From NCBI RefSeq assembly GCF_000003815.2, contig NC_049992.1, positions 3,209,703 through 3,273,702 of the forward strand: DNA of 64,000 nucleotides. Direction: 5' to 3'. Positions within the stretch are counted from its first letter, which is position 1. Every line of letters begins with the position of its first letter. The translations under genes were made by a program, and so were the position numbers. This DNA is from Branchiostoma floridae. Lineage: Eukaryota > Chordata > Leptocardii > Amphioxiformes > Branchiostomatidae. The notes under the pieces are model-generated. The model searched no databases, was not told the origin of the DNA, and saw nothing but the letters and a program-made list of their open reading frames with translations. Positions 474 to 64,000 of this stretch are shown piece after piece.

Positions 474-2248
474 CTCTGTGTACAGGCCCCCCACGTCCCC
501 TGCCTCGGCTGCCCTGCTGTTTGGTGCGCTGTTTGCTGACGATGTCCTCCTTCACCATGTCGATGACCTCATCAGGAATACGCAAGTACTTGATGGTGCT
601 GCCACGGATGTAACACTCAGGCATGCGCCAGAAACGGTCACCATCCTGAGGGGGACAAAGGGAGCTGACTTAGAAGTACACTTGTGTTTATGAGTGTGTG
701 TGTGTGTGTGTGTGTGCAAGTGTGCAGAAGGGATGAGCAAATACTAGTACTTGATGGCGCTGCCTCGGATGTAACATGCGCCAGAAACAATTGCCATCCG
801 TGACAAAAGGAACAATTTAGTGTATTTCTGTTCATGTTCATGCAAGAGTGTGTGTGTGTGCGTACGTATGCATGTACATGTATATGTGCACTGGGAATAC
901 GCAGGTAGTTGATGGTGCTGCCGCGGATGTAGCACTCACTCGCCACTTAGGCATGCACCAGAAACGATCACCGTCCTGTGGGAGACAAAGGGAGCTGATT
1001 TCGAAGTCCAAGTGCACGTGTGTGTGTGTGTACTGGGAATATGCTGCTGTCCCGGACATAACACTGTGCCAGAAAGGATCTCCCTCCTGGTGGGAAAAAT
1101 GTAAAAAAATACATTTCAAACCATTAGGATGCTCAAAGCATTATGGTACACATACATGGTAAATTGTAAAATACATGCAGATCTCTGAACTGAAACACTG
1201 TATGCTTTATTGTAGCTCAATGCCTTGCAAATTGAAAAAAAAAATAATTAAGATTAGAACTGCAACACTTTTGTAAGATAAACCCATAACATTCATCTGA
1301 TTCCCACCCACCCGTGATGTGCAGATGACGTCCCTGAGTTTGATGTTCATCCAGTTGTCGCAGGCCTCCAGATGGCCGTTGTACGTCTCTCCGTTCTTCA
1401 GCTCCACCAGCTGGGAAACACAAGAAACAAACTTGGAGAAAAGTCTACTTCACACCTACATGTAAGAAAAAATAAGAGCACAGAATGCAGAGCTTGTGGT
1501 AGACATGCTTAAGCCATGGTTTTGTTAGAAAAAGTTGTCACAAACTTATTCTTCTTGAAATACGTAACAAGTATGAAGCTGAAGCCTTCTATCCTGGATG
1601 TGGTATAAAATAAAGGTATAAAGTTTATTACATGTAGTTATAATGAGCAAGTTAAACCATTCTTGATGCCCCATTTAAAATATTTCAAGATAGCAATTGT
1701 GACAATTAATTATGATGGATACTGATGCTTGTATGAACTGTTACAAACATTTTAATAATCTTATGCACTTCATACAAATGTAAATAGCACTGACGTAACT
1801 TACCATAGGGTGGTTCTGAGCAGTTTTCAGCAATGACAGAGGTAGCTGTGGAAAAGGGATATCATTTGTTAGTGAAACTTGTTTATAAATATGAAAAAAT
1901 GTCAAAATGCTATATATACCTTTATTTACAAATTACAATGTAACTTAGATACTTACTACTAAAGGAATGTTTCTGAACACTCCTAGTGCACTTACTGACT
2001 TCAGGTAACAAATATCAAGCACGTATACGTCTGTATATCATATACGTATCTCTGGTTTGACGTTGTTGTTACGTTACCACCATGCGGCCCTCCCTGCCCC
2101 CCTCCCCACCTAATCCAAAACAGCACGACAAACCGCCAAGAAATTTTCCCTGAAACAACGCTAAAGCTTCTTACAGGTCCTGTGCATTCCTTGTGCTATT
2201 AGATTAAGTTCTGTTTCACAGAATGACAGTTAGAACGACACTTACCAT
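474..2248 (-). CDS. LSM4: U6 snRNA-associated Sm-like protein LSm4 (partial, C-terminus outside window)
   Basis: LSm4 is a subunit of the LSm2-8 ring that binds the U6 snRNA 3' end and of the cytoplasmic LSm1-7 ring in mRNA decay. Coding exons on the minus strand are 2248-2246 (the ATG alone, followed directly by GTAAGT), 1845-1804, 1410-1312 and 645-474. Frame is continuous through 105 codons. Exon 2 encodes [14 protein letters not shown] and exon 3 encodes [14 protein letters not shown], the Sm1 motif region. Exon 4 encodes the Sm2 motif ([15 protein letters not shown]) and the start of the RG-rich tail (SRGRGRGG). The exon ends CACAGAG|GTTAGT. If that donor were not used, a TAG at 468-470 would end the protein after GGPVHRG. 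Human LSm4 is 139 residues, so about 35 remain outside. The intron between exons 3 and 4 holds three degenerate copies of the exon 4 start. The gene is head-to-head with DHX36. Confidence 0.96.
575..1110 (-). repeat. Exon echo array of LSM4 exon 4 (acceptor side) with TG microsatellites
   Basis: The start of LSM4 exon 4 plus its upstream intron and a TG run is tandemly repeated. The real exon start is near 575-645; degenerate copies are at about 741-800, 891-990 and 1036-1085. Copy 741-800 lost its acceptor (CACG in place of CAG) and 8 coding bases. Copy 891-990 keeps a CCCACAG acceptor but has an insertion that shifts frame. Copy 1036-1085 keeps CACCAG but is frameshifted. None can replace the real exon. 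Confidence 0.8.
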
Positions 2249-2640
2249 TTTTCTGGGACGATTTTTGACCGATTCGTGCAAAAAACAACCGGCACTGCCG
2301 AGATCTACTTCCGGCTACTCTTGGTGCATTGTGGGACGGTTCGAAACACTCTTTGTCGAAAGTTTCGCGTTTCGCAAGAAAAATAAGGGTCAAAACATTG
2401 GTTTGTTTCGTGCAAAGAAGGTATAGCAGATCTTTAGGCTCGATACGCTTACTGTACACAAACTTGAAGCGTTCAAGATAGCAGAAAACGGCAGAAAAAC
2501 TGAATTTGTACTAAACGGAAGGAAAAGAACTCCCGGCTTCAGGTCGACTTTGACATGTGATGTTCACAGCTTCTCTGTCTTCAAGACTTTACAACTCCTC
2601 CAAGGGACTTTTTCGAGACGTCTTAGCAAAGTCGGCAGAG
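2249..2640. promoter_or_regulatory. Probable shared bidirectional promoter of LSM4 and DHX36
   Basis: The LSM4 start codon (2248, minus) and the end of the predicted DHX36 5'UTR exon (2648, plus) are only 400 bp apart and diverge. An ETS-type core ACTTCCGG lies near 2309-2316, which is typical of housekeeping bidirectional promoters. No TATA box is obvious. Exact start sites cannot be read from sequence. Confidence 0.55.
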
Positions 2641-2648
2641 CACAGAGG
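2460..2648 (+). other. Probable non-coding first exon of DHX36
   Basis: The first coding exon of DHX36 begins at 3739 after a good acceptor (CTCTTCCAG), only 7 bases before its ATG, so a 5'UTR exon must exist upstream. The best donor is AGAGG|GTAAGT at 2648/2649, immediately downstream of the divergent LSM4 start. The 5' limit is a guess. Confidence 0.5.
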
Positions 2649-3745: not shown

Positions 3746-6700
3746 ATGGCAGAAGGATACGGAGGTTACGGGGGTCAAAGGGGAGGTCACGGTCGCCGAG
3801 GTCGGGGCGGCCATCGCGGCTGGAGAGGTCAAGGGCAGTCCAGGTCACACTGGTCAGGCGGTGGGGAAGATCAGAGGAGCTTTTCATCAGGTACGATGTG
3901 TTGATTTGTTTATCAATTTGTTTCATAGTAGACATGAGGAATCTTGTCTGTGTCTTCATGTGTGCGTACAATGTAACATTATACAGTCTAATTTACAGGA
4001 TTAAGGTCTTCAAATAAATGCTCAATGATCTGCAGGGGTATTTTGGTTTAGATGTAAACATCAGAGTCCAAAAGTTTTCTCAGTGTTGTCATGGCTTCTG
4101 AAGGACCCTGCATGTGCCACGCAAGTCACGGTTTGTATGCAAGTGGCCACTAGTGTCCGAAAGTGTATCCTAGAGACTACTAGTACAATGTTAGAGACTA
4201 TTAGTACGTCTGTATTAGCCTAGCTTCTTTTCAAACAATATCTTTGTGTACTAAACTGTCGGAATACCATGTATGCAGATTTATGCAGAGATTCAATAGC
4301 CTAGTTTTATTCACGATGTTTGTTCTAATTTATGTATGTGGAGATAACCCACAATTATTGTAATGTAACTCGCAATTCAGCTACCAAGCTGCAATGTTTT
4401 ACAAATAAAATCATTCATCATTCATCATAGGTCCAGTTACCAGAACAGGATGGAAACCTGCTGCCTTGTTGTCTAGAGGCAGACCAAAGGTACTGTTATC
4501 TTCTAATGCAGATAGAACAATGTGAAATTTTAACCCTTAATTTTTCAGACAGGTTCTGGGACTTGGGCAGTTCAAGATAAGGAGAGATCTGACTCTTCTG
4601 GTCTGAGAGATGAGACAATGGACTGTTGTTTTAAACCTCTCTTTTCCTGATCATATATTTTCAGGCTCTGCAGGCTGGAGATTTTGTGGTTTACTAATTC
4701 TGACTTGAGGTTCAGGAGGCTGGGATGGTCGAGGCAGGGGAGGGGGGCTTGGTGGCAGGAGGAGGCATCCCTCTGGCCTGAGAGAAGAGACAGTGGACTG
4801 TTGTTTTAAACCTCCCTACTCCTGACATATTTTCAGGCTCTGGGGACTGGAGAAGTTGGAGTTGTTTAAAACAATTCTGACTTGTATTACTTACAGGTTC
4901 AGGAGGGTATGGAGGCCGGGGCAGGGGAGGGGGGCGTGGCGGGAGGAGGGGGCATCCCTCCGGTCTGAGGGGGAAGGACATCGGGCTGTTCTACGCCAGG
5001 AAAAGCAAGGACAGGGAGAAGAGAGAGGTGAGCAGCGAGCCCTGCATTTTCATGGACTTTGTCTAGTTTCTTTTACATCAAATTCTTCAGAGAGCTCGAA
5101 AGCTATTTAAAAAGTCTGAAATACTACACAAATCTTGAGCTTTTACTCTTCAACTGTGTGAAGCTTTAAATTTCCCTTTGTGATCAAGTAAGTAAGTGAG
5201 AATGGAGATAAGTACATAAAGCCCCTTTTGTCTACATTGTTTTGCCTGCATTGTTTTGAGTGCCTAGGCCAGCTAGGAACTGGCCCTTTGCTCCTCTCTA
5301 TTAGGTTTTTCCTTATTGCACAGTCCCGAGCCATGGCTACAGCTGGCTTTCTTGTTCGATATGTTTATTTTACTTATTTATTGGTTTGGCTGTTCAGCAC
5401 ACAGAGCCAGGGCTGCTCAACAAGCCCATGGCTATTACATGATATATGAGTTAACAACATTTCCTGCAACTGTGGCAGCGGTCAGTGGTTCAGATGGACC
5501 AGAGTCAGGAACAGCACCTGTCCCAGCTGTTAACTCACCTGCGCCGGGACGACACACCTGCGGACAGGTGGAGGGATGACACACCTGCCGATAGGTGGAG
5601 GGATGACAATGCGCCACGCCCACAGCCGGCTGGAACCGGTCAGGACTGGTTTGAACAGGATGATGCAGACAGCTCAGGTTCAGGTACTGTTGTTTTGTCA
5701 GTGTAACTAAGTGCAAAGTAGTGTTTAATTTTTGTTTTGAAACAGATTCTGAAGTAACATTTTTTTATAGGTAAAAAGATACTTTGAATCTTAGATTTAA
5801 AGATTAGAATAAGACTTTGTACAACATCAGTTCTCTCCGTTAGATGTACTTAAATTGAATTCTTTTGCCAGTTGATTCTAGTTACTCTGAAGAAGTGTGA
5901 TGGATGTCACTCGAAATGTCCAGAAACAAGTCCAGTTGTAGAGATTGTTGTTTACCTGGATGTCTAACCTTTACAGGGCTCGAAATATATTTTTCTGCAT
6001 ACTGTACCTGCACTGGTGTAGGTAACATTGAAAATTATCTGCACCAGACAAATCTTACCTGCACCAGACAAATCTTACCTGCACCACTCCGAATTTAAAA
6101 AGTATGGATCATACTAAAATTGTTCTGGAACCATTGCTATTTTTTTTTCTTTTATACTTAATATAATGTTATTCTTAATAACATTCAATGCAGCTAATAA
6201 CAATCCACATACACGGCTACATCAAAGGTCATTTATGTATAAAACCCAGTACATGGAGCAATGCAGGTTAGGTGCAGGTAGAGACCAGAAATACCTGCAC
6301 AGCTCCAATTTTACCTGCACTAACCCGCATATGCACGTGGTATTTCGAGTCCTGATTTATAAACGCAACTTCACACTATTTATAGTTTAGTTTTACAGTC
6401 TTACCTCACAAGTTCACACATGGGGAGCAAATGTGTTTTGACCTCTAAATTAAAAATGGCAGAAGGTCAGTGAAACCAACTGATGATTATATGTTTACAT
6501 GTACATACAGGGTCCTCTTCACAAAGACTTGACAGCAGCAGTCAGAACTCTTCAAGTGTCCCACCAGCTGGTAGGAACACCTCCGGTGGTGAGAAGGAGT
6601 CTTGGGCTGAACCCGAGACGTCTTGGGCTGACTCTGAGACGTCTTGGAATGACCCTAAGGAGCTGTGTGCGGGTCCTGCTGCTGTTCTGCCGGTACAGAC

Positions 6701-12700: not shown

Positions 12701-15700
12701 CCGAATAGACCCTACAGAGTTTTAGTAACGCATGTGCAAAATGGATATCTGCAGTTGTTTTTTTTTTAGTCGCTTGATTTTACAATTCAGATTTATGAGA
12801 AATTAATAAAAACAATGTGACTTACTTTTCTCATGATCCCTTCCAGGAAAGTTCAGGATCATTCCCCTTCACTCCATGATGCCGACTGTCAATCAAACTC
12901 AGGTATGTCCTTTTTCTTGATAGTGTCTTTGAGTGTCAGATTTTTTTTTTCAATCTGCTTTCCTTCTTCAACCTTGTGAGCTTTTTTTTCTGCGCGACCA
13001 TGTTGCTTGCTTTTACTCTTTAGTCATTTTGGAAGCATAAAGTATATGCACTTAACCTGCTCACACTACTCCAGAACAACTGAAATGTTTGTATTTCCAT
13101 GAAATGACTGAAACGCTGACTTGTATTATAAGTAACTATATTTTAAGATGAATCTTTTATGATGAACCTTCTATGATGAAACTCTCGGGCGAACGTACGT
13201 CCACTATGTAATTTGGTTTGAAATTTCAGATACTTTTTTTTCTATTAACTGTGAAAACCAAATAAAGCCCTCAACTCATCTCTCATGAAATATGGTTCAT
13301 ACTCATGCCACGGTACAATTTGCAGGTATTTGAAAGGCCCCCACAGGGAGTGAGGAAAATTGTTTTAGCCACAAACATTGCTGAAACAAGGTATGGAATA
13401 AAAGTTTCATATCTCTTTGTGCTAACATATTGATTTTACAAGTTACTAGTAGACATTGTAGAAGTTGTGCATTCAAACTGATGCAACTCACATTTATAAG
13501 TCATTGACTGAGACCCAAGAGAATGGCAGCAGCATTGGATAGCATGCAATGTGACACTGTTGTAACACAAGGTCTCTTATAGTCCATGATGTTGTATGGC
13601 TTTCTCTGTCTCCAGTATAACGATAAGCAAGGAGTTTGTCCTTCCCTCTATACTGATCCGTTTAAAAATGGGTTTCTCAACGCTAGACTAGATTCAAATA
13701 TATTTTTTTTCACTTTTCTGTTCCGCCAGTATAACCATAGATGATGTAGTGTATGTTGTGGACTGTGGACAAGTGAAGGAGAAGAGTTTTGACATCACCA
13801 ACAACCTGGCCACCTTACAGCCAGTCTGGATCAGTAAGGCTTCAGCTAAACAGAGAAGGGGCAGAGCTGGCAGGTAAGGGTTAAAGTTTGTATAACTCTG
13901 CAACTGTGACTATTACCCAACAACGTTAACCTGGCTACCCTAAAGCCAGTCTTGATAAGTAAACTAAAGGCATCAGCTAAACAGAGGAGGCAGGACTGGC
14001 GGGTTAGTGTGGGAAGTTTATTCAAACAAATGTATGTTTACTACTGTACAAGGAATCATGGTGAAGTCGTGTTCTTTGGCTTCACATAGTGACGGATGAT
14101 TACATAATTTTCTTTTGTCTAAGGCAGCATGAAAGTTGTTCAGTTGAAGCATTTCATTAAAAAAACTTTTACTACTTTGATAAAGTACTGGGTTACCGTC
14201 AGAGCTGTCAATATTCTTTTTTGATGGAGATGAAGTTCAACTTTTGTGGAAACTCTTCCAAAGAGTTTTTTAAAGTCAGAATCCCCTTGTTATTTCTACA
14301 CAGGGTGCAACCAGGTGTGTGTTTCCACCTGTTCTCTCAGCTGAAGGAGTCTAAGATGCAGGAGTACCAGCTACCTGAGATTCTCAGGACTCCTCTGGAG
14401 GAGCTCTGTCTGCAGATTAAGGTGTGTTTGTTTGTTTGTTTGTTTGTTTGTTTGTTTGTGGAGTCTAAGATGCAGGAGTACCAGCTACCTGAGATCCTCA
14501 GGACACCTGGAGGAGCTCTGTCTGCAGATTAAGGTTTGTTTGTTTGTTTGTTTGTTTGTTTGTTTGTTTGTGGTGTCTAAGATGCAGGAGTACCAGCTAC
14601 CTGAGATCCTCAGGACACCCCTGGAGGAGCTCTGTCTGCAGATTAAGGTTTGTTTGTTTGTTTGTTTGTTTGTGGAATCTAAGTTGCAGGAGTACCAGCT
14701 ATTTGAGATCCTCAGGACTCCTTGGGAGGTGTTGTTTGAACTCAAATATGGTTAACACCCCCCTAAACATTACCCATTTGAAATTCATGAATGACAATTT
14801 CTGCTGACATTCAGTGAACCGCAACTTACTCAGTTACAGTTCTCCCGTGTAAGTTGCTGCTATTTGTGTGGCAAATAAACGACAGGCACTACCCATGCAA
14901 TTTCAAAACATTTTTGCAGGTAAAGCAGACGCCTAGGTTTTTGTCGCAATCATTGTAATGTGTCGGATAAATAGCAGAAAGTTTAATCATTGCAGAAAGT
15001 CTGCAATTCTTGGCACAAACACCTCTAGTCCTGTACATCATACATGATTGAATAATTTTCACAAAATACATTGCAAGACTATATTGTATATTGTATATTG
15101 GATGGAAATATTTTGCTATGTGAGTCTATAAGACTCTTAGTCTTAGTATTAAAACAACAAAGACATCAACATTTATTGTTATACCTATTTTTGCAACTTG
15201 CAAGCACATTAAGCATCACATTGTAGAGAATTCAACTTTTAGCTTAACTAGTACATAGTCACTGATAATTTGAGTATTCAATGGATGATATACATGTAGG
15301 ATATGTGGTTACAAAACATCAATCAGTCAATCAATCAATCATCTGCACAGTTTATAGAGCATTCAGCTTAACTCATTTTAAGCAAATTACTCATCTTGAA
15401 CTTAATTTTGTAATGCCACTGACATATCACATGTCAGGCTACACCATGACTAGTTCATACACCTTCCTGGCTGGGTCTGTTATCCCACTGGGGACTGGTG
15501 GAAACATAGGCAGCCTGTTCCTGTCAGTCTGCTGGGCCATGTTGTAGTGGTGCAGGATTCTGTCCCTGTGGACAGATGGGTCCTGCTGGCCGTACAGGGT
15601 AACCAGGAGGTAATGAGCCGCGCGCACCCAGCTATGGTCTGTCGGCGCTGTGTGGATGTAGTGGTGAAACTGCCTGATGGCCTGTGGGACAGACACGTTC

Positions 15701-39014: not shown

Positions 39015-39020
39015 CCCTGG

Positions 39021-48000: not shown

Positions 48001-49746
48001 CCCCCATGTACAGCAGGGTGCAGAGTTTTGACCCTCCCTCCCAACATCTCCGGAGCTCCTGTGATGTCTGCTACATCCCTAGGGGAAATATCATAAAACC
48101 ATTAACAAGTATCAAGACAATTAATCCAGGCCTTCTTAAGTTATTGTTATAGACATACACAACGACAGACACACACTAAAAAGCGGCCTGCAGGCCGATT
48201 TGAGCTTTCCTGAATAAACAAACTTTCAAACAAACAAACATCTCAAAACATAACTAACGTTCTTGGCAAAGGTAATTACAACAGGCATTAATGATACCAC
48301 AGACTGATTCAAGCCTGTTATTTGGATCTCTTTTCTTCAACCAGCCTTAAGAATCTACATAACACTCAAGGAATGTCTTGAGTCCACATAGGCTATCTAT
48401 ATCACACAAATACAAGGAAATAATAAAAAGACAGACTAACTTGACAGGCACATTTAACACACACTGACACAGACACACAAACAAGACTTACTTGACAGGT
48501 ACACCAGAGTCCCCAATGGCTTTAGCAGTCCCCCAGGCACAGACAGACAGACAGACACACAAACAGACACAGGCAGATGCACAGACAGACAGACAGTACT
48601 TACTTGACAGGCACACCAGAGTCCCTGATAGCTTTAGCCGTCCCCCCTGACGCTGCCAGCTGCAGACCCAACTCATGGAGGCCGCGGGCAAAATCCACCA
48701 GCCCGGACTTGTTAGACACACTCAAAAGCGCTGTGGGAGAAAATATATCCATAGCGTCACAAATGTTATGTTAAATAACCTAAACCCTATCCTAATTTAT
48801 GGATGCCATGAGCAAAATCCATCAGGTGCCAACTCTGAGTCTGAGCCATACGTACGGAGTCGCACGGGCAAACTGTGAGAATTTGCTCTTATGCAATTTA
48901 CGCCAACATAGATTAAGTAGACTAGTGATTAATGTCAAAGTCAAATTTCTCATTAAGACACTGATAAAAACAGCATAAGCTGAGACAAGTCCGAGAGTGC
49001 GGACATGCTACTGTAGTGCGTTCCAGTCTGTTGACAATGGTGCCCGATGGGTGGCGCATGACCAAATTCTCACAGGGCCTATGAAGTGAGTTTACCCGTG
49101 AGTCGTGACACGATAGGGCTTAAGCTTAGAGGAAGGGTCTGGTATCTAGGCTAATCCCCACACCACCATGAGATAATATTATCTAAAAAATCTATCAATA
49201 GTATCATGCGTAATTTGAATCAGAAAGCAGGTTTTCAACCTCCTTAAGCACACCTTAGTTCAGTAATGTTATGTTAATTGGACTTGGTACGTTCTTCCTT
49301 AAATTATAGCTGCTAAGGCTATTCAAATTGATGATTAATTAATCAAGCAAGCAAACAAATTGAAACTTAATTGCAAAACAATTGCCATTAACGATTAAGT
49401 ATGATTACTTTCTTGATTGATTGAATAGCTTGCAGCTATAACATAAGCAAGAGCGTATTTCTCCTAATTCTCTAGATGATACTATTTCCTCAATTTCTCC
49501 AATATACTAGTATCACTCACTCACACACCATGCGCCACCATACCCCCCCCCCCCCCCATCCTTTTCAATTCCCCACGAATAAACTTTACAGCAAAGTTCC
49601 CCTCCCTCCAAAAAGCCTTCCCAAAAGATTCCCAATTTCCTACGCTACGTGCCACGTCAATGCTGGACGACCAAATCCTCGATTTAACGTTCTAGACGCG
49701 AAAATTAGCGAGAACCTTTCCACTCACCGATTTCTTTTCCCGCCAT
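39021..49746 (-). CDS. ATIC: Bifunctional purine biosynthesis protein ATIC (AICAR transformylase / IMP cyclohydrolase)
   Basis: ATIC performs the last two steps of de novo IMP synthesis in the cytosol: formylation of AICAR with 10-formyl-THF, then ring closure. Seventeen minus-strand exons: 49746-49728, 48730-48604, 48078-48002, 47233-47167, 46864-46776, 46387-46236, 45104-44948, 44244-44119, 43629-43522, 43208-43123, 42928-42839, 42403-42275, 41943-41851, 41672-41599, 40209-40041, 39408-39313, 39140-39021. The total is 1779 nt, 592 residues, identical in length to human ATIC. The cyclohydrolase domain starts [16 protein letters not shown] and has [11 protein letters not shown] with K66 in human numbering. 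The transformylase domain has SFKHVSPAG with K266-H267 at the human positions. The C-terminus is TNLRLFHH. Boundary echoes occur at exons 2, 3, 6, 7, 11, 12 and 17. Head-to-head with the SLC38 gene. Confidence 0.98.
40395..40492. mobile_element. Short foldback MITE (AAAGCAGTTACTCAAGCAAC arms)
   Basis: An inverted repeat of about 33 bp: AAAAAGCAGTTACTCAAGC near 40395 pairs with GCTTGAGTAACTGCTTTTT ending near 40491. The loop is about 25 bp. It lies in an ATIC intron. Confidence 0.8.
40683..41491. mobile_element. 809-bp MITE with AGGGCTGGGTACCGGTACAG ends (copy 1)
   Basis: Inverted ends AGGGCTGGGTACCGGTACAG and CTGTACCGATACCCAGCCCT. Subterminal repeats of CAGGTCCGG / CCGGACCTG. Flanked by identical ATGTACATGT (40673-40682, 41492-41501), a possible target duplication although this word is common here. 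Shorter relatives are at 60075-60437 and 44315-44450. ATIC intron. Confidence 0.85.
42444..42484 (-). repeat. Echo of ATIC exon 12 start (acceptor side)
   Basis: CTCCAGCTCAGGGGGTCC, then GTAGG, then ACCATTTGG repeats 42372-42406 (exon 12 start on minus: CTGTTACAG then ATGGACC). It lies just upstream in transcription order. The acceptor is degraded. Confidence 0.6.
42562..42838 (-). repeat. 44-bp minisatellite derived from ATIC exon 11 donor boundary
   Basis: About six tandem units, four of them near-identical (from about 42647). On the minus strand each contains TACTGTGTGCTGCAG, the last five codons of exon 11 (YCVLQ), followed by the donor GTGGGTGTGTATGGGGGTT. The real exon end is at 42839. 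Units toward 42562 are diverged. Confidence 0.9.
44315..44450. mobile_element. Degenerate relative of the AGGGCTGGGTACCGGTACAG MITE
   Basis: The right end CTGTACCGATACACACCCCT and an interior of GGACCAGTCTGGAC and GGACCTAAACC match the family. The left end is replaced by a poly-G tract. ATIC intron. Confidence 0.6.
44495..44840 (-). repeat. Three echoes of ATIC exon 7 (donor side)
   Basis: Downstream of exon 7 (45104-44948), partial copies lie at about 44840-44775, 44745-44628 and 44570-44495, increasingly diverged. The nearest keeps the donor as AAAG|GTATAA. All carry the exon's TGTGTACAGCTG and CAGGTTTCTGGTG section (seen on plus) but not the exon start. Confidence 0.85.
45540..46235 (-). 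repeat. ATIC exon 6 boundary array (5 partial copies) with (TTTG)n
   Basis: After exon 6 (46387-46236) in transcription order, five units repeat its last ~115 bases (GTGGTGTGCGACCC onward, encoding [10 protein letters not shown] to KTLAVK), the donor and a TTTG run on the minus strand. Units are about 110-140 bp. None carries the exon start. Codon-level variants differ between units (DPADYS, DPEEYP, NPSDYP). Confidence 0.93.
47380..48001 (-). repeat. ATIC exon 3 boundary array (5 partial copies)
   Basis: After exon 3 (48078-48002), five units repeat its last ~40 bases (encoding [12 protein letters not shown]), the donor GTAAGG and intron text GAACAGTCCATGTG. They lie near 47890-47930, 47776-47815, 47664-47700, 47583-47625 and 47404-47455. 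Between them are extra GAACAGTCCATGTGTCATA spacers. The repeated codons include the catalytic lysine of the cyclohydrolase site. Confidence 0.9.
48488..48535 (-). repeat. Echo of ATIC exon 2 (donor side) with ACAG microsatellite
   Basis: About 43 bases of exon 2 end (GACTGCTAAAGCCATTGGGG onward) plus donor AAGTAAGT repeat the real boundary at 48604. The copies are separated by a CAGACAGACAGA microsatellite at 48540-48598. An additional 35-bp similarity at 48797-48830 may be an acceptor-side remnant. Confidence 0.85.
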
Positions 49747-50188: not shown

Positions 50189-53100
50189 ATGTCCGTACAA
50201 GAGGACAGAGTTTCGGGGGTAGCTTATGAGAGTTTTGGCGAGACGCCCGCAAATAATATTGCTTCAGCGTCGACGGAAAGTTCAGGCGATGGGGTCGAGG
50301 ACAACAGTGTCATCGTTCTTAAGGTAAAGTTTCAGATCATTTCTTAATGGCGCAACTTAAGAATCACTCGTGGATCTGTCAAGTCAAGAACGTTTAGTTG
50401 CTTGTTGTTGTTGTTGTTGTCACAATTATTATTTACAGTTAGACCCTTCTGTCCTTAAACTGGTTCAAAGTTGCATCCTGTTTGATAAAGTCACATGATT
50501 TAATGTAACAACTTTGCGTCTTGGCAGGAAGAGAGTCTTGTTGGCTTGTGACAGCTGAAGGGACCGTACAATAATTCTATCATAGGGAGGGGAATGGTTT
50601 TCCATGTTTTCTGTTACGTAGAACATGTATGTGAGCAATCGTAAATTTTCGCAATTTATATCTTATTGACAGTGTGGTAGGCAAAAAGCAGGTGGCAGGC
50701 AAAGCATTAATTTAAATGTGAATTAGTTTTTGATCTGCTAATTCTAATATTGTAACACTGTAAATGCAGAAATGTTCGTGGTGGTTTTTCCATTATAGTT
50801 TTTGACTACAGTCTAAGGTGCTACTGCAAACTTAAAACCATAGCGAATACTCCATTTTCTCGCTACCGTGAAAGTAAATCCCTGCAAACTTAAATACATT
50901 TACAGTACTCTGTTCTACTACCGTCATTTTGCCTGCCAGTCTGCCAATGAGCTCTCTCGCAGAGATCAGAACGCATGTGCAGTGACAGGAATTCTAGGTA
51001 ATAATATGTCAAAGGTAAAGGCCCCAAAAAAGAAAACACTCCTTGTCCTGACCAAATGTTTCATTTGCATAACATGTACAAAGTCCAGAAAGGTTTTGTT
51101 TCCTTTTTCGAAGCCTTTCCTTTTGACACATTAAATTTGATACATGACATTACATGTAGTTCAGGTAGACTGCACACAGAAGTAGATTGTGCAGTTATTA
51201 ATCCACGTAATTGACTTAGTCCTGCCCGCAGATCCAGGCCAGTAGACGGGACCGAGGCACGCCCGTGGCCGGAGCGATTTTCATCGTGGTGAACGCCTGT
51301 CTCGGCGCCGGGCTGCTGAACTTTCCCGCGGCGTTCCAGGGGGCGGGGGGCAACGCTGTCGGGGTCTCCATGGAGGTGGTGAGTGGGAGTGAAGGAAGGA
51401 AGGAAGAAGTGATTGGATCGAGAAGTGAGCGAGTGAATGAATGAATGAGTAGGTTAGATTTTTATCGTGGTGAACGCCTGTCTCAGCGCAGGCCTGATGA
51501 ACTTTCCTGCAGGGTTCCAGGGAGCGGGGGCAATGCTGTCTGGTCTCCATGGAGGTTGTGAGTGGAGTGAAGGAAAGAAGAAAGAAGTGGATGAATTGTA
51601 GAATGAGGGAGTGAAGGAATGAATGAGTGTTAGTGATTGAATGAGTTGAAATGTATTAAAGAGCAAAAATGTGTGTCAATGGAAAAATACTCTGACAAAG
51701 ATTTAATAAAGAAGAAAAAGGGAGGGAGGAGTGAATGAATGAATGAATGAACGAATGAACGAACAAACAAACGAACAAACAAACAAACGCAAGAAAAAAT
51801 GAATGAAAAATAAATGAATGAATGAATGTTATGAATAGGATTAGTTGTTTATTTATTTGTTTACTTGTCAGGTTTTCCTGGTGTTTGGAGCGGTGGCAGC
51901 ATTGATCATGGCATACTGTTTGGACCTGTGTCGTGTTGTTTATTTGTTTGTTTGTTTGTCAGGTTTTCCTGGTGTTTGGAGCAGTGGCAGCTCTGATCAT
52001 GGCATACTGTTCGGACCTGTGTCGCGTGAGCACGTACCAGGACGTAGTGCAGACGGTGTGCGGACACAACACCGGCATCCTGTGTGACCTGGCCATCATC
52101 CTCTACACCTTTGGCACCTGTATCACTTTTATCATCATCGTGGGCGACCAGGTTGATAAAGGTGCGTGCGTAGGAAGGTTTGGAAAGAAAAAATGGACAG
52201 GCTTTTTTTAAGGTTTAGATTAGGTTTAGTATTTATATTATATTTCATCCTTTGTTTAAAAGTTTGTTTCTTAATTAAGAGGTTAGTAAGATGGAGTATA
52301 GATTATGTCAGTTCTTTGATTTTGAAACATTTCAGAATCAATGAATATGTGAGCAAAATGAATTATTAGGAGCCTTCATAAATTTATAAAGAGTGGACAA
52401 AAGAATTGATGAATAAATGAATGAACAAATGAATGAATGAATCAATCAATCTATCTATGGACATTGAAGGCACAACAGCATATTGGCTGTAAGTTACATT
52501 TTGTTATTACTGGTATGGAAAATGGATTACTGGAGGAACATAATTTTGGCATTGATTGATTGTTTGTTTGTTTGTGACAGTTATGCAGTGGGCAGCGGGA
52601 CCAGAGTTCTGTTACCACTGGTACATGAACAGAAAGTTCACCATGAGTGTGATCCTGATTGATTGTTTGTTTGTTTGTTTGTTTGTTTGTTTGTTTGTTC
52701 CAGTGATGCAGTGGGCAGCGGGACCAGAGTTCTGTTACCACTGGTACATGAACAGAAAGTTCACCATGAGTGTGATCCTGATTGATTGTTTGTTTGTTTG
52801 TTTGTTTGTTTGTTTGTTTGTTCCAGTGATGCAGTGGGCAGCGGGACCAGAGTTCTGTTACCACTGGTACATGAACAGGAAGTTCACCATGAGTGTGATC
52901 TCTGATTGATTGTTTGTTTGTTTGTTTGTTCCAGTGATGCAGTGGGCAGCGGGACCAGAGTTCTGTTACCACTGGTACATGAACAGGAAGTTCACCATGA
53001 GTGTGATCCTGATTGATTGTTTGTTTGTTTGTTTGTTTGTTTGTTCCAGTGATGCAGTGGGCGGCAGGTGCAGACTTCTGTTACCACTGGTACATGAACA

Positions 53101-56100
53101 GGAAGTTCACCATGAGTGTGATCTCTGATTGATTGTTTGTTTGTTTGTTTGTTTGTTTGTTTGTTTGTTTGTAACAGTGATGCAGTGGGCGGCAGGTGCA
53201 GACTTCTGTTACCACTGGTACATGAACAGGAAGTTCACCATGAGTGTGATCTCTGATTGATTGTTTGTTTGTTTGTTTGTTTGTTTGTTCCAGTGATGCA
53301 GTGGGCAGCAGGACCAGAGTTCTGTTACCACTGGTACATGAACAGGAAGTTCACCATGAGTGTGATCTCTGATTGATTGATTGTTTGTTTGTTTGTTTGT
53401 TTGTTACAGTGATGCAGTGGGCAGCAGGACCAGAGTTCTGTTACCACTGGTACATGAACAGGAAGTTCACCATGAGTGTGATCTCTGATTGTTTGTTTGT
53501 TTGTTTGTTTGTTTGTTCCAGTGATGCAGTGGGCGGCAGGAGTAGACTTCTGTTACCACTGGTACATGAACAGGAAGTTCACCATGAGCGTGATCTCTGA
53601 TTGATTGTTTGTTTGTTTGTTTGTTTGTTTGTTTGTTCCAGTGATGCAGTGGGCGGCAGGAGTAGACTTCTGTTACCACTGGTACATGAACAGGAAGTTC
53701 ACCATGAGTGTGATCTCTGATTGATTGATTGATTGTTTGTTTGTTTGTTTGTTTGTAACAGTGATGCAGTGGGCAGCAGGACCAGAGTTCTGTTACCACT
53801 GGTACATGAACAGGAAGTTCACCATGAGTGTGATCTCTGATTGTTTGTTTGTTTGTTTGTTTGTTTGTTTGTTTGTTCCAGTGATGCAGTGGGCAGCAGG
53901 ACCAGAGTTCTGTTACCACTGGTACATGAACAGGAAGTTCACCATGAGTGTGATCTCTGATTGATTGTTTGTTTGTTTGTTTGTTTGTTTGTTTGTTCCA
54001 GTGATGCAGTGGGCAGCGGGACCAGAGTTCTGTTACCACTGGTACATGAACAGGAAGTTCACCATGAGTGTGATCCTGATTGATTGATTGTTTGTTTGTT
54101 TGTTTGTTTGTTTGTTTGTTTGTTTGTTCCAGTGATGCAGTGGGCGGCGGGACCAGAGTTCTGTTACCACTGGTACATGAACAGGAAGTTCACCATGAGT
54201 GTGATCTCTGATTGTTTGTTTGTTTGTTTGTTTGTTTGTTTATTTCAGTGATGCAGTGGGCAGCAGGACCAGAGTTCTGTTACCACTGGTACATGAACAG
54301 GAAGTTCACCATGAGTGTGATCTCTGACTGATTGTTTGTTTGTTTGTTTGTTTGTTTGTTTGTGACAGTTATGCAGTGGGCAGCAGGACCAGACTTCTGT
54401 TACAACTGGTACATGAACAGGAAGTTCACCATGAGTGTTATCTCCATCCTCATCATCCTGCCCCTCTGCATCCCTAAAGACATCGGCTTCCAGAAATATG
54501 CCAGGTGAGACCACGTCTTCCATCTCAAGGACATGATTTGTAAGATCTAGTATTACTCTTAAGAATTCAGAAGTTCATTTTTTTCTTACAAATGTCAAAA
54601 AAATGTCTGAAGCCCTAACCCTCCAGCTCTGTGTCCCAGAGGACACAAGGATGCCAGATATGATGATTGTTTTGACGACCAAGGTTTTGTTCTTGCTTGA
54701 GTAAAGACCACCTTTTTTCAGTTAAAAAAGGGAGTTTCCAAGACAGAGAAGTTTGGTGTTAAGGTAGCCAGAGAAAAGAGACAGTTGTTCAAATATTATA
54801 CTGTAGAATTTTAAGAGTTTTAGAACAGAAGTGAAGCCTGTCAAAGCGAATATTTTTCTCTCCTGTTTTCTGCAGTTTTCTCGGTGTAGCGAGCATCCTG
54901 TATGTAACAGTGATAGTCTCTGTGAAGTACTACACAGGAGGGTACCCTCCCGCTGATGTGGTCACAAGGTAAGGTGCAGTCTCTGCTGCTTCTTTATTCT
55001 GATATACATGTAAAATTTGCTACATCAGCTTTACATGATTGCTTCATGTTAAGGTGTATCTTTGGATGTTTTAGGTGCTAGGACAACGTATGATATTTTT
55101 TTTTAAATTTGGTGAAACTTTCAGAACATCTACAACTTTCATGATCTACAACGTATTGTCTTGTTTCATGACTGCCTATATGGGTGTCTGCTTTGTTGTG
55201 TATAGTCACTACAGGGACATACGTACAATGTATGTTGGCCGCTCAGAATAAACATAAAATCGTCATCATAAAACATGAAATAAGAAACATAAATTTTGTC
55301 AACCCATAGTACTTGTCCAACTGTTTTCATGCGTTTCTTTTCAGCCCAAAGACTTTCACAGATGTGTTTATAGCAGTCCCTACAGTTTGTTTTGGCTTCC
55401 AGGTAAGTGCAAACCATAACAAATAATACATTGTATGTTCTCTTCTGTTTGACATTTCCTGACTGACATTATAATTATTGCATGAAACTATGGAGAATTC
55501 ATTAAGTGGACTAATCATGATTTATTTGTGTTAAGGAAGGACATTTTCGATTTTTATCAACTTCATTTTTCTTTCAGTTTCTTCTCTTTCCCTAGTCTAG
55601 TAACATCTGTTCCACTTTTTCTCCTGTGTTTCAGTACCACATCAGTGCAGTTCCAGTCTATGCCAGCATGAGAAAACGGAACCTGGGCAGTCTGGCTGTT
55701 GTCATGTTTTTTGCCATGGTCATCGCAATGCTGGTATACACAGCCACAGGTATGCATGTTTGTTTGTTTGTTTGTTTATTAATTTTCTTAGTCCTTTGCT
55801 TGTCCCTTCAACATGATTTCAAAAGACTCAGACAGGAAAACACCAATTTAACACAAACTGTTATTTTGAGTGAGTACAATGTAGACTACATCAATTAAGG
55901 ATAGATTTCTAGGTATATAGTACCGGTATTACGATATGCCAAATGATAGATACTCAAAGAGTGTATTTTTTCTTCAAATGGGCTTTTTTCTCTCGATGAT
56001 ATAATCATGACACCACACTTATTTACATCAATTGCCATCTTCTGACGAGGTAGTCTCTGAAAAAAATTCCATACTCAACTAGATCTGGAAATAGTATTAT

Positions 56101-57873
56101 TAGTAGACCCCTAAACTCCTCAGCCACTCTACAATGTTACCTTAACTGAAGAAACTTGATATCAAAGATTGGAAATTAATCATTCACCTAAAATTTTGAC
56201 TATGATATCATGTTTACAGGTGTGTATGGTGGGTTAACGTTTGGAAGCAGCGTAACGAGCGATGTGCTGCTGTCCTACGATGCTAACGACGTCTCCGTCA
56301 CGATTGGTCGAGCAGCCCTCACGCTCGACATCCTCACGTCATATCCCATACTGCACTTTTGCGGAAGGTAGGGATAGAATTGAATTTTTTAGGATTTGTC
56401 CTTTTTTTATTTAAAGGAATCTCCTGTCAGTATTGACAATATTCAACAGTTACATGAAAGGTGTGAAATATTGTTTCATGTAAACAGCATCAGCTATGTA
56501 CACTGCTTACTTCTGCTTTACAAGATGTTAATAAACTATTTTGCTTTGCAGTATTTCCATATGCACAATTAAGTTTCATACATAAATTCAATTTTTAAGA
56601 GCATGCTTCCCTCCAATGTTATGCAGGTCTCATTACATTGCAAGTTATAGTCTTGGCATCTATCTTTCAATGTCTTTCTAAAGGTACAAAATAGAGACAT
56701 GTTTCAAAAGTTAAGCTATTATGTAATATGTTCTTTTTCTGATCTGCTAATGATCTAGAGGATTGCATACTTACCCAACATACTCTGTTCACCGCTATAG
56801 AACAGTACTTGATGGGTTTTACGTAAGATGGCGCCGGTTGTCGGCGGAAGACAACCTTCGACAGGAGTTTGTGCGTCGCGTCGTGGAAACCATGGCGTGG
56901 TTCTGGCTCTCGCTGTTTTTCGCCATCATGATTCCGAACATCGGGCTGGTCATTTCTGTCATCGGGGGGCTGGCAGCTGTCTTCATTATGGTCTTCCCAG
57001 GTGTGAGATTTTTTTGTGTATTTTGAGTAAAATTGCATTTTTGCTCCAATTGCTTTGATTCCGAATATCGGATTGCCCTTTTTTAATCATTGGGGAACTG
57101 GCCGCTGTCTTCATCATGCTCTTCCAGTGTGTGAATATTTTATTGTCTACATTTTTTGTCCAAATTTGTCCAGCAATATTGTGCCTATTCTTTGTTTAAT
57201 CATGCATGATTCCCAAAGTCATGCTGGTTATATCAGTTGAATCAAGGTCTTTAAGTATGTTTGTCTTGCAAGATATAGTTTTTTTTAAATATTTTTCAGA
57301 TAGTTGTACTTTTCCACTAAATTATCCAGGTCTGCTTTCTCCTTCTAAGAGCATCCAAACTTGATATCATAAGACTGTTAGTGACCTCCTCTGGAGACTC
57401 TCTGATGTAAAATTTACTGATCATTCCTTTTCTTAAAAAGGGTGTGCTCTGCTGCATATTATGGAGTGTTCAATTTGTAGCATCTCATAACAAAGATGAA
57501 GATAATTTTTTTAGTTCATTTGACAGAATTAAAAAAACTCACACTGTGACAGTGACTCTCCAGTTTGCACCTTTTTTATGTGGGGTACAAGCATTGTTCA
57601 GATGATTCTATTGTTGCCAAGAATATAGAATAAGTTTAGAATTATGGAGATCTTCATGTCTCTGTGTTATTTTCTGCTCCAGGTTACTGCCTCATCCAGG
57701 CCGTCCTGCTACAGCAGCCATCAGACAACGTGCACAAGGACCGCGCCCTCCTAGCGCTGGGCGTCCTCTACGTGTTCCTGGGCACCTTCATACTGGGGGA
57801 GAACACTGCCCTCGCCATCATAGACGACTTGAACGGGAAAAACTCCTTACAACAGATCTGTACTGTTACTTGA
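50189..57873 (+). CDS. SLC38A7: Sodium-coupled neutral amino acid transporter, SLC38A7 (SNAT7)-like
   Basis: An 11-TM amino-acid/polyamine transporter. SNAT7 in mammals moves glutamine and asparagine across the lysosomal membrane; the same role here is inferred. Ten exons: 50189-50323, 51232-51378, 51963-52161, 54369-54504, 54876-54968, 55345-55402, 55635-55749, 56220-56367, 56801-57000, 57683-57873. The total is 1422 nt, 473 residues (human SLC38A7 462). The N-terminus is soluble and Ser/Glu-rich (1-58). The family signature [19 protein letters not shown] is at 59-77, then [41 protein letters not shown] and [21 protein letters not shown], all matching SLC38A7/A8. The start codon gives a 45-codon first exon ending AAG|GTAAAG. 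Boundary echoes occur at exons 2, 3, 4 and 9. Paralogue SLC38A8 cannot be excluded. Confidence 0.9.
50757..50906. mobile_element. MITE, ACTGTAAATGCA family (copy 3)
   Basis: Starts ACTGTAAATGCAGAAATGTTCG and ends AAATACATTTACAGT. About 150 bp, internally shortened. Intron 1 of the SLC38 gene. Confidence 0.7.
51455..51565 (+). repeat. Echo of SLC38 exon 2 (donor side)
   Basis: Repeats the last ~105 bases of exon 2 (ATCGTGGTGAACGCCTGTCT onward) and its donor GTGAGTGG with several substitutions and indels. It lies 75 bp downstream of the real boundary at 51378. The intervening and following sequence is rich in GAATGAAT. Confidence 0.9.
51720..51840. repeat. (GAAT)n / (GAAC)n microsatellite
   Basis: Runs of GAATGAAT and AACAAACG in SLC38 intron 2, with smaller runs at 51425-51455. 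Confidence 0.85.
51870..51957 (+). repeat. Echo of SLC38 exon 3 (acceptor side)
   Basis: TCAGGTTTTCCTGGTGTTTG through GGACCTGTGTCG duplicates the real exon start at 51963 with an intact acceptor, followed by TTTG units. The real exon follows immediately. Confidence 0.92.
52556..54368 (+). repeat. SLC38 exon 4 boundary array (15 partial copies) with (TTTG)n
   Basis: Fifteen units of about 110-130 bp precede the real exon 54369-54504. Each has (TTTG)n, an intact acceptor (TTCCAG, GTGACAG or GTAACAG) and the first ~83 bases of exon 4 (TGATGCAGTGGGC to ATGAGTGTGATC). Exon starts are near 52581, 52704, 52827, 52935, 53050, 53178, 53294, 53410, 53522, 53642, 53762, 53882, 54002, 54133 and 54249. 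After ATC many units read TCTGATTGA, an in-frame stop. Units encode [11 protein letters not shown]; the real exon encodes [11 protein letters not shown]. Confidence 0.95.
57058..57135 (+). repeat. Echo of SLC38 exon 9 (donor side)
   Basis: TTCCGAATATCGG onward through GCTGTCTTCATCATGCTCTTCCAG|TGTGTGA repeats the last ~70 bases of exon 9 (56930-57000) with substitutions and short deletions. The donor is weakened. Confidence 0.85.
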
Positions 57874-60437: not shown

Positions 60438-60554
60438 AGTTGCAGGTATTTCAAGTTGAGGCAGCAGCAGTTAGAATGCAAATAACAAACAGACCAACAT
60501 CGTTGAGGTAGATTTAGTAAATGGTTTAAATTTCATTGAGGTTTTATTACACAA

Positions 60555-61638
60555 CTAGAAAGGCCGACATTTGCTTAGGAGCAAATACAGCATATTGCAA
60601 TCCATCTTCATCCTTGAAAAAATCCCAAAATTCAACAATTTGAAGTAATGTTTGCTCAAAGGGAAAATGAAGTACTGTGGGCACTTGTCCTACACACCTT
60701 CATGCCGAATTTTAGGTCATTTGGTTTCAATATAAGGGCATAGGAGCCAAAAATATACATTTTTTAGTTAAAAATCGCTTAAAATCCCAAAATAACCCAC
60801 ATTATAAGTGCTCTATGAAGAAAGTGTTAATGGAGTCCTGTTGTCATATGTCCAATTTACCTTTGTACCAAATTTTAGGTCATTTGGTTTACATACAAGG
60901 GCATAGAAGCCAAAAATATACATTTTTAGTCAAAGATGACTGAAAAACCCAAAATTACTAATTTTTGAAGTGATCTATGAAGAAAGTGTCAATGGGGTCC
61001 TGTGAGAATATGTTCAATGCACCTCTGTACCAAATTTCAGGTCATTTGGTTTCTATACAAGGGCATAGGAGCAAAAAATATACATTTTTAGACAAAAATG
61101 GCCAAAAACCCTAAAATAACTCATTTTTGGAGTAAACAATGAATAAAGCATTGATGGAGTTCTGTGGTCATATGTCAAACGCACCTATGTACCAAATTTC
61201 ATGTCATTTGGTTTCAATACAAGGGCATAGGAGCCAAAAATAGACATTTTTAGTCAAAAATGGCCAAAAACCCTAAAATAACTCATTTTTTAAGCGATCT
61301 ATGAAGAAAGTGTTGATGGTTTTCTGTGCTCATATGTTTAATGCACCTCTGTACCAAATTTCAGGTCATTAGCTTGTAATACCAGGGCACAGGGGCCCAA
61401 AATATACATATTTTATCTAAAAATGACCAAAAACCCTAAATATCATAAATTCTAAGGCCTCTATCAAGAAAATGAAAAAAACGCCTGGGGGTATTTGCTA
61501 CTTCTACCACCCTGCCAAATTTCAGCTCATTTGGCCCAAAAATGAAAAAGTTGAATCCATTTGAAGATTTGACAGGAGGAGAACGAAAGGAAAAACAATA
61601 TATTGCAATCCCATACTATGTATGGATTGCAATATAAT
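60555..61638. mobile_element. Long non-autonomous repeat element, copy 2 (terminal hairpin type 2)
   Basis: Starts CTAGAAAGGCCGACATTTGC like copy 1 (29504), but the next inner sequence is CATATTGCAATCC. The terminal hairpin is ATATTGCAATCCCATAC / GTATGGATTGCAATAT followed by AATT. The body is about five ~165-bp units built on CAAATTTCAGGTCATTTGG and GGGCATAGGAGCC. The same tail word GATTTGACAGGAG occurs before the hairpin. Confidence 0.75.
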
Positions 61639-62059
61639 TACCAATTACCTTTAAGCCTTATTCTAACAGCCAAGCTAAAGTTTGCAGAGTATATACATAG
61701 CATTGAATGACTGATAACCAATGTTGAAATGTATTGACATTGTACATTTCTTTCATCTTTCAACAATTAACAAGTGACGAACTTGGGCTCAAGAGGGTTG
61801 CAGGCATTTTGTTACTTCAGAAAACTGTGATAGGATGTGAGATATACATGTAAGTTCCTTTCCAAATGTTTTCAAAAATCATATATTATAGACATTGGCT
61901 AGGTTCCTTTATACAATGTATTCAAGTTAGGACCAATATCTGTAGTGACTATAAGTTTACTTTAGATCAGAAGTCATAACAACGAGATTTTATAGTTAAA
62001 TTTACCATATGATATTTTCATTAAAAGTTCATTAATAAATATTTATGTTCCGATGGTTT
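61639..62059. other. Intergenic / 3'UTR of the M13 peptidase gene
   Basis: AT-rich sequence downstream (minus) of the peptidase stop. No further feature recognised; no clear minus-strand AATAAA. Confidence 0.5.
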
Positions 62060-64000
62060 TCACCAAACTGAACACTTGTGTACAGGGTTCATGGGACTCC
62101 CCACCGGACAGTGGAACGCTTCTGAGAACTCAGCCAACTGCGACACACTGCCGATTACCCTGAAGAAAAAGGAGAAGAATATTGTATTCCAATCTAGTTT
62201 GAGCTATGAAGTATAGCCGTTTTGAATAAATGGTTGACTGCTATTTTGCCCCTCTCCCATCGCTAAAGAACTTGGCGCATGGGCTGATCCTAGAGCTTGC
62301 GCTAGATGGTTAACGTTATATCAAGGTAAATTCCCCCAAAAGTACAGAAAATGTATTGCCAAGAACTGTGTGTAATCAATGAGGTTCTATTAACGGAAAA
62401 TACATGTAGCACGACAAGACAACAATGTAGATATAACCTCATTGATGTAATCTGCCAGGCATATAATAAGCCGTCTTCCTGTACTATGTACCTGTACTTT
62501 GGTGGCGCGTGCGGATCCACTAGAAGCATGACATCTAAAGCCTCCGGGCGCTGCGTTATGCACCAACTCTGCAGACAGACAACAAAGCGTCATGTTCAAC
62601 GTTAACTTGGCTATCAAAACAAACATGACATCTTTGTGAAAGAGGCAGCCTGCTGCCGGATAAGGAGATGGAGCGACAAGATATGATGATGATGAGAAAG
62701 AAGTAAGTTCAGACAGACTTAAACATAGCCTAACTAAATCTCGCTTATAGCACCCCATCCAACATCTAACCGGCTTGCTACCGGGAGGAGCCAGTTACAG
62801 CCCTGGACAGCTGAGTTTGTGTCACACAGACTAACTTTAATGCATATCAATTTTTTTACATCTTTTATTATTGGCAAAGTAAAGTTGCTATTTGATGGGA
62901 CTTTACCTGGACAGCAGAGTTTGTGTCACACAGACTAACATTAACGCATATCAATTTTTTTTATATCTTCGATTATTGGCAAAGTAAATATATATTATGT
63001 AATAGGACTTTACCTGTGCAAAGGACATGAAGAACACCTCCTCATGTGTTCTATTCAGCCCCGGCAGTAAAGGCTCACCCTGCTGGTGAACCTTTTTCCA
63101 TATTTGATAACCCTGTAAAATACACAGGAAAACAACAGTACGTGATCTCTCGAAGTCCCTTTAAACTTCGGACTTAAGTTGGAAGAGCAATGACCAGCTT
63201 AAGATTAGAAGCTATGACAACTATGACTTCACTTGTATGCCGATTTCAGCTTCTCCTGAATGAATAAAAGGTTCAAACAAAAGTCAGCTTAACGTCTGTG
63301 GGTACTTAGAAATTAGAAAGGCTACCTCTAATGAATGATGCTTCAACTATTAAAAGTAGCCAGAGGCTTTGTAAATGTTATACTATGAGAAATAGATATG
63401 ACTTTAGATTTACGATACTCACATAATATGCTTGCTTTAGGCCTCCTATGTCGGCTATGTTTTCTCCAAGTGTCAACCTGCCGTCTATCTGGAAAAAAGG
63501 TATTCTTACATTATGTAACTTTCAGCTTGGACCATTCAATATGGCGGATAAAACTAAAATCATAGCTACATGAGTGTAAACACCTGATACGTATATAGAA
63601 TACAACACGGTGTATTCCGTACCACCGGATGATTTTATTTATGTTATGCCCACCTGATAATTCACACGTTATAATGTGAAATGCGCCAGAAGTTGAGAAA
63701 TTTGGTGCCCAGGAACAAAAAAATTGTAACAGCACGAATCCGTATTCGAATTTTCGACCGCGTCCCACTCGGTGCACACGGAGTACCTTCGATTTATTTG
63801 ATGGAAGCCCGTGTGATACGGCAAGTTATCGCCCGGCCCAGAGCACCTGTATCGTACGTTATCGCGGCCCAGGTATGACACAAATGTGTGTATGGCATGC
63901 AGCGTCAACTGAGTTGCCCACCTGTTTCCCTTCGATGACGTAGCTGCTGTACAGATCTATGACGCACTGTGACGCCCGCGTGAAGTTTGTCCAGGAGCTG
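62060..64000 (-). CDS. M13-family zinc metallopeptidase (neprilysin/ECE-like), C-terminal part
   Basis: M13 enzymes are type II membrane ectopeptidases that cleave small peptides. Exons on minus: 64000-63922 (continues beyond the edge), 63488-63423, 63112-63014, 62568-62492, 62159-62060; about 139 codons in continuous frame. Order of features: an [11 protein letters not shown] segment; [11 protein letters not shown], holding the third zinc ligand Glu and the supporting Asp of the ExxxD motif; [41 protein letters not shown] with the substrate-stabilising His and Arg; FSEAFHC; and the classic C-terminal CSVW. The HExxH zinc site lies upstream, outside the window. MME versus ECE subtype cannot be decided from this part. 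Convergent with the SLC38 gene. Confidence 0.93.
62800..63015. repeat. Tandem duplication spanning the donor of an M13 peptidase exon
   Basis: Two ~105-bp units share GTTTGTGTCACACAGACTAAC, GCATATCAATTTTTTT, TATTGGCAAAGTAAA and GGACTTTACCTG. The last is the donor of exon 63112-63014 (minus: CAG|GTAAAGTCC). The second unit carries a copy of that donor near 62884-62895. Confidence 0.8.
63595..63885. mobile_element. Foldback-family repeat, copy 2 (inverted relative to 34555-34940)
   Basis: Reads AATACAACACGGTGTATTCCG at the left. The minus-strand body matches copy 1 (CACCAAATTT, CAACTTCTGGCGCATT, AATTCGAATAC, TGTCATACCTG). The second hairpin arm is missing. It sits in an M13 peptidase intron. 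Confidence 0.65.

Follow-up and report, generated by a model that had tools for sequence, protein, structure and literature searches.

Exon Edges and Splice Sites Copied in the Window

The window examined here is a stretch of 64,000 nucleotides from the amphioxus Branchiostoma floridae (C14:3209703-3273702; genome total 513 Mb), which carries LSM4 (minus strand), DHX36 (plus), ATIC (minus), SLC38A7 (plus), and the edge of a neprilysin-like (M13) gene (minus). Its introns hold partial copies of neighboring exons, referred to here as echoes, in which an exon edge is repeated together with its splice site. Exon models were derived from tblastn searches with B. lanceolatum DHX36, B. floridae ATIC, and B. 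belcheri SLC38A7, combined with the scoring of junctions, yielding 57 exons in these three genes (the junction between DHX36 exons 2 and 3 was placed by hand) and, with two LSM4 exons, 59 in total. The joined ATIC exons were 100% identical to a B. floridae protein (best local alignment, 52% of the draft), which establishes a cephalochordate host, and LSM4 exons 3 and 4, when joined, matched LSm4 in the PDB (E-value 1.9e-42). The M13 exon, searched against the PDB as an open piece of 22 residues, gave a weak neprilysin match (best E-value 0.029). Relative to a first-pass annotation of this DNA, our exon numbers are one higher in DHX36 and one lower in ATIC, where our mapping begins after the first coding exon. 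The features relevant to the echoes are as follows:

485..645 (-): LSM4 exon 4, intact; acceptor score 10.0
746..1031 (-): two acceptor-side echoes of LSM4 exon 4, ~77% identical, one without its AG
4597..4802 (+): acceptor-side echo of DHX36 exon 3 (intact exon 4897-5027)
13928..14010 (+): donor-side echo of DHX36 exon 19, 76.5% identity (intact exon 13730-13873)
14304..14421 (+): DHX36 exon 20, intact; donor AAG followed by GTGTGTTTG
14422..14729 (+): DHX36 exon 20 donor-echo array, part one; ~112 bp units of exon end, donor, and (GTTT)n
14730..20902: segment of ~6.2 kb splitting the DHX36 exon 20 array; repeat-like open reading frames similar to 23977-24924
20903..22955 (+): DHX36 exon 20 array, part two; 19 donors
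37459..37585 (+): repeat of the stop-codon end of the last DHX36 coding exon (37230-37397); no splice junction
42562..42838 (-): donor-side echoes of ATIC exon 10 (intact exon 42839-42928), with 6 donors and a unit of 44 bp; GTTT tract absent
44495..44845 (-): three echoes of ATIC exon 6, reaching 3-4 bases beyond the donor (intact exon 44948-45104)
45533..46235 (-): five donor-side echoes of ATIC exon 5; ~139-bp unit, two sense-strand GTTT tracts of at least 20 bp (intact exon 46236-46387)
47363..48001 (-): donor-side array of ATIC exon 2 (intact exon 48002-48078), with 7 placed donors; GTTT tract absent
48429..48534 (-): two donor-side echoes of ATIC exon 1 in our numbering (intact exon 48604-48731)
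51457..51633 (+): donor-side echo of SLC38A7 exon 2 (intact exon 51220-51378)
51844..51936 (+): acceptor-side echo of SLC38A7 exon 3 (intact exon 51963-52161); short TTTG run before the true acceptor
52551..54368 (+): acceptor-side array of SLC38A7 exon 4; 15 copies of ~120 bp with (TTTG)n (intact exon 54369-54504)
55758..55777 (+): lone GTTT tract, 8 bp past the SLC38A7 exon 7 donor (exon 55635-55749), where the search gave no echo
57056..57149 (+): donor-side echo of SLC38A7 exon 9, 76.6% (intact exon 56801-57000)
62802..63016 (-): 104-bp tandem copy at the neprilysin-like (M13) exon, including the donor and few exon bases (by eye)

A local search conducted exon by exon across all 59 exons returned off-diagonal copies for 14, of which 13, distributed over four genes, have a repeat unit that spans the exon-intron boundary (in ATIC exon 6 by 3-4 bases only); the fourteenth is the stop-codon copy of the last DHX36 exon. 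Nine loci are donor-side (DHX36 exons 19 and 20; ATIC exons 1, 2, 5, 6, and 10; SLC38A7 exons 2 and 9) and four are acceptor-side (LSM4 exon 4, DHX36 exon 3, and SLC38A7 exons 3 and 4). In each case, the authentic exon, with its GT/AG sites and matching protein, stands beside the copies. The first-pass annotation had claimed 17 such loci, and the 13 above stood while the other four did not. The last DHX36 coding exon (its exon 30) was listed as a splice echo and is instead the stop-codon copy, the last ATIC exon (its exon 17) displays just a short C-terminal motif repeated beyond the stop (by eye), and for its ATIC exon 12 the local search found no copy. The claimed M13 donor is indeed contained in a tandem copy, one with only a few exon bases by eye, so that the statement that every recognized gene carries echoes holds for LSM4, DHX36, ATIC, and SLC38A7 and is borderline for the M13 gene. 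Its further point, that the intact exon is always kept, with donor echoes downstream and acceptor echoes upstream, carries no independent evidence, since tandem duplication across a boundary yields exactly that geometry.

The GT or AG is kept in 65 of the 66 echo copies with a placeable boundary (one further copy stops short of it), and 26 of the 66 equal or exceed the true site in score with a small matrix built from the window's own exons. At DHX36 exon 20, 19 of the 21 placed echo donors read GTTTGT, compared to GTGTGT at the true donor. The weakest locus is ATIC exon 6, where the two best copies extend ~3 bases beyond the donor and the third 4 bases (71% identity). Copies within an array are highly similar, with exon-echo and echo-echo identities of 0.967 and 0.974 at DHX36 exon 20 (20 echoes, both array parts) and 0.925 and 0.952 at SLC38A7 exon 4. 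In the latter array, the outermost copy has the true acceptor sequence and the inner copies diverge from it. The segment that splits the DHX36 exon 20 array has minus-strand open reading frames resembling 23977-24924, which suggests that it may be a mobile element inserted into the array, in which case it could serve to date the array.

Structures of this kind are known in amphioxus as mirages, described for the globins (PMC3087553) and PGBD5 (PMC3902484), with those of troponin C and of Adh3 (Canestro et al. 2002) cited in both papers. The first-pass annotation was therefore correct in pointing to an amphioxus Adh report. Like the echoes, mirages are minisatellite-like tandem duplications of an exon-intron boundary on either side of the exon, often with the AG or GT kept, in which the authentic exon is retained and clusters show concerted evolution (PMC3087553, PMC3902484). 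The edges of globin mirage clusters escape homogenization (PMC3087553), and the pattern of the outer SLC38A7 exon 4 copy is consistent with that report.

GTTT Tracts in the Window and Across the Genome

In the two largest arrays, those of DHX36 exon 20 and SLC38A7 exon 4, a (GTTT)n tract adjoins the splice site in nearly every unit. The DHX36 exon 20 intron starts with GTGTGTTTGTTTG, and at SLC38A7 exon 4 the tract lies immediately before the acceptor AG; ATIC exon 5 shares this arrangement in part. There are 37 GTTT tracts of at least 20 bp in the window, 36 within echo arrays and one past the donor of SLC38A7 exon 7, compared to one in 25 random stretches of the genome (232,384 bases). GTTT-type tracts were also seen directly upstream of the true acceptor at SLC38A7 exons 3 and 4 and in a dynein gene elsewhere in the genome (L031, 2273-2296).

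Genome-wide, (GTTT)6 has 3,920 matches; the 100 matches listed, the first in genome order, fall into 20 loci, all on C1, of which 10 hold several tracts, mostly spaced 70-160 bp apart. Among the matches listed for the control (ATTT)6 (265 in total), none of 56 loci was multi-tract (Fisher 1.9e-7 vs 10/20), and among those listed for (CTTT)6 (3,703 in total), the loci were mostly long pure tracts, with one of eight being multi-tract (two tracts 64 bp apart, by eye). We read the sequence of all 10 C1 GTTT arrays and of five of the 10 single-tract loci. In seven of the 10 arrays, an exon edge, splice site, and tract are repeated beside a visibly longer parent exon, recognized by an exon model in L038, L040, and L042 and by eye in L037, L041, L044, and L046. 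These include an exon of eIF3K (L044), one of CPSF2 (L040), and one with a TALPID3 match below Pfam's cut-off (L038, E-value 5.2e-06). The sense-strand tract is GTTT in most cases read, so that T-richness near splice sites may place the tract there, and AAAC in L037, L042, and L044 (by eye; the strand of L037 is itself a by-eye reading). Two further observations concern individual loci: the 98-bp GTTT array of L043 pairs a strong donor motif with an open frame on the opposite strand, and L051, counted as single-tract, contains a further, shorter tract as well as a repeated flank.

The donor itself also associates with the tract. The strong donor motif AGGTRAG occurs at most 20 nt before (GTTT)5 in 140 matches genome-wide (overlapping phases counted), compared to 11 for the one-base control AGCTRAG. 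The 100 of the 140 matches that were listed represent 36 loci, 13 of which are arrays, on nine contigs, and all 11 control matches represent six loci, two of which are arrays. Two of the 13 arrays, both on C10, look like mutual copies. Three arrays (C9, C10, and C14), read in part, all repeat an exon end and donor by eye, with the exon model placing a donor at the repeat in only one (L054); the exon of the C9 array is TRAPPC10 (E-value 3e-18). Taken together, GTTT tracts are associated with multi-tract arrays and with donors, an association that is nearly absent for ATTT and CTTT.

Could the copies instead be alternative or mutually exclusive exons, functional and under selection? Some units outside the window do carry both sites: those in L041 and, by eye, L039 each have an acceptor-like site and a donor, making them ready-made tandem pseudo-exons (in L041, ~100 bp are also repeated inside the coding exon itself). 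In one of the random stretches, L010 4029-4340 holds two copies of one exon, which we take to be TMEM97-like, at 72% DNA identity and well conserved as protein; this is a candidate pair of mutually exclusive exons rather than a mirage. The window echoes, in contrast, are all partial with a single splice site each, and no complete frame-preserving exon copy was found among them. Moreover, the distances of the DHX36 exon 20 echo donors and SLC38A7 exon 4 echo acceptors from the true site fall into all three classes modulo 3, so their use would often shift the frame. We therefore regard functional exons as a very improbable account of the echoes. By analogy with the globins and Adh3, where splicing ignores the mirage copies (RT-PCR, i.e., reverse transcription polymerase chain reaction, in the globins; PMC3087553), the echoes are probably spliced out as part of the intron.

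Mis-assembly of haplotypes or repeats could in principle have produced the copies, given that such arrays are difficult to assemble and a single assembly was used. Against this, the copies differ from one another and from the exon, the pattern is found again on many contigs, and the PGBD5 repeats were confirmed upon re-examination of Sanger and Illumina data (PMC3902484). An artefact of this sort appears even more remote than functional exons.

Origin of the Echoes and Comparison with Chance

We read the echoes as amphioxus mirages that arose through boundary-spanning tandem duplication, with GTTT acting as the unstable seed of a subclass (probability of about 0.7). A local tandem duplication with little or no end homology would copy the exon edge, the splice site, and some intron; the DHX36 duplication junction has ~1 shared base by eye. 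As the duplication is head to tail, the full exon survives. The array would then grow and homogenize through slippage or unequal exchange, as the similarity of the copies suggests. In the GTTT subclass (DHX36 exon 20, SLC38A7 exon 4, partly ATIC exon 5, and many loci across the genome), we propose that the array is started and enlarged by the tract, which would act as its unstable seed.

The principal competing account is that local tandem duplication is uniform, boundary copies only seem common due to detection bias, and GTTT tracts are passengers. Part of the boundary excess may indeed be such a bias, because the exon stays conserved while only the echo decays, which would leave exon-echo pairs recognizable for about twice as long as intron pairs. 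When each duplication locus in the window was counted once and placed at random with its unit length, 13 of 20 loci crossed a splice site compared to 4.0-4.4 expected, and none of 10,000 draws reached 13. Two stricter nulls, in which the stop-codon copy is counted to give 21 loci, bring the observation closer to uniform duplication: 14 of 21 compared to 9.0 expected under circular shift of whole arrays (33 of 5,000 shifts reach 14), and compared to 9.4 (standard deviation 2.1) when each best pair is placed at random. A local match was present for 92 of 300 intronic segments of the window, a comparison excluded as a control because the matches concentrate within the echo arrays and the repeats at 29-34 kb.

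Given the window was picked for its echoes, other stretches were examined as well. The random sample comprised 25 stretches with 78 predicted exons (one stretch, L011, is all N), the exons being predictions, some of them transposon open reading frames, of a small model trained on the window exons; on the window itself, this model recovered 43 of the 59 exons at score 15, plus 19 predictions outside exons. Donor copies were found in L017 (93% identity; the exon has no Pfam match and is presumably parkin-like), in a molybdopterin-domain exon (L029), and in an exon that looks Ig-like by eye (L030). Among three dynein genes, chosen for the best family matches, two have boundary echoes (L031, acceptor 94% and donor 88%; L032, acceptor 73%) and the third (L033) has no boundary echo. 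The echo phenomenon thus extends beyond the window, which looks richer than the random sample.

A number of results weigh against our reading. In the random sample, seven of 42 loci cross a predicted exon edge compared to 3.5 expected (P 0.05), a count that leaves out two zinc-finger coding repeats (L036) and keeps L010 and the weak loci L029 4262 and L035 6097. The first 20 stretches alone showed no enrichment (2/29 vs 2.3 expected), with five further stretches from the same pre-drawn list bringing the count to its final value. Relative to random placement, an excess of boundary-crossing copies is found in the window, and in the random genome it is about twofold and borderline. A search of the CCT family, insensitive to short echoes, revealed no clear echo among 86 matches. 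As for the tract, nine of the 13 window echo loci have no 20-bp GTTT tract (LSM4 exon 4; DHX36 exons 3 and 19; ATIC exons 1, 2, 6, and 10; SLC38A7 exons 2 and 9), so GTTT is not necessary for echoes, and SLC38A7 exon 3 has just the shorter TTTG run. The GTTT lead also arose in the window, meaning that only the later genome counts test the link. Within those counts, the (CTTT)6 control is small (the eight loci among the matches listed), L039 has exon-like units and no identified parent exon, and L043 and L045 show repeated donor motifs only. Two of the five single-tract loci read (L049 and L050, the latter with a CFAP61 match below the cut-off) lie within ~25 bp past a donor and the other three not clearly so, and exact contact between donor and tract is rare (nine matches at three loci), the pattern being too strict.

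The modest excess in the random sample, the stricter window nulls, and the many tract-free loci all favor uniform duplication with detection bias. It is opposed by the unit-length null in the window, by how common multi-tract GTTT loci with exon edges are relative to the ATTT and CTTT controls among the matches listed, and by the donor and GTTT counts, and we consider it rather unlikely. The simple explanation offered in the first-pass annotation, a high rate of local tandem duplication with the full exon surviving, fits most echoes; the GTTT-linked subclass goes beyond it, as uniform duplication does not predict such a subclass. Boundary-spanning duplication with a GTTT-seeded subclass remains our preferred reading. 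The broader proposal, that GTTT microsatellites next to splice sites repeatedly act as seeds of exon-edge echo arrays across many genes and form a genome-wide, ongoing generator of splice-site-bearing copies, some with both acceptor and donor, is more tentative, and we would place it slightly short of even odds.

The window also holds other repeats. Two tandem arrays (30549-30992 and 60619-61534) have periods of 163 and 162 bp with similar-looking consensus sequences and are perhaps a dispersed satellite-type repeat, and a direct repeat of 670 bp (31649-32318 and 33449-34118; 99.6% identical, 1.8 kb apart) occurs in a DHX36 intron.

Relation to Known Systems and Biological Meaning

While the phenomenon is known in kind, the window differs from the published mirages in its density, with 13 boundaries in 64 kb, and in its longer arrays (15 placed copies at SLC38A7 exon 4 and 21 at DHX36 exon 20). 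It also differs in that a subclass has a GTTT tract next to the splice site, a feature not mentioned in the available excerpts of PMC3087553 and PMC3902484. The amphioxus VCBP3 gene is similar in having complete or partial exon copies in introns adjoining coding exons, some with canonical splice sites; in the excerpt available, these are mentioned as data not shown, without reference to a tract or density (PMC2632668). Intron gain via duplication of an AG/GT proto-splice site (Rogers, cited in PMC3087553) likewise relies on boundary-bearing tandem copies to supply splice sites, unlike which the copies here are candidate decoys inside existing introns. In the titles and abstract openings returned by our searches of the open-licence PMC literature, we found no link to GTTT and no genome-wide count of mirages. 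The density seen here and the way in which GTTT tracts, arrays, and exon edges are associated look new.

For gene annotation, the echoes are a trap; they also provide a natural experiment in which the spliceosome chooses the true site among up to ~20 near-identical candidates. If the GTTT link is true, amphioxus would be a tractable source of new splice sites, with one tract type predicting boundary-spanning minisatellites, and intron gain through tandem duplication, which is usually deduced from old events, would become testable across haplotypes and sister species. If the seeding role of the tract is also true, the raw material of intron gain and of new exons could be watched in one living genome.

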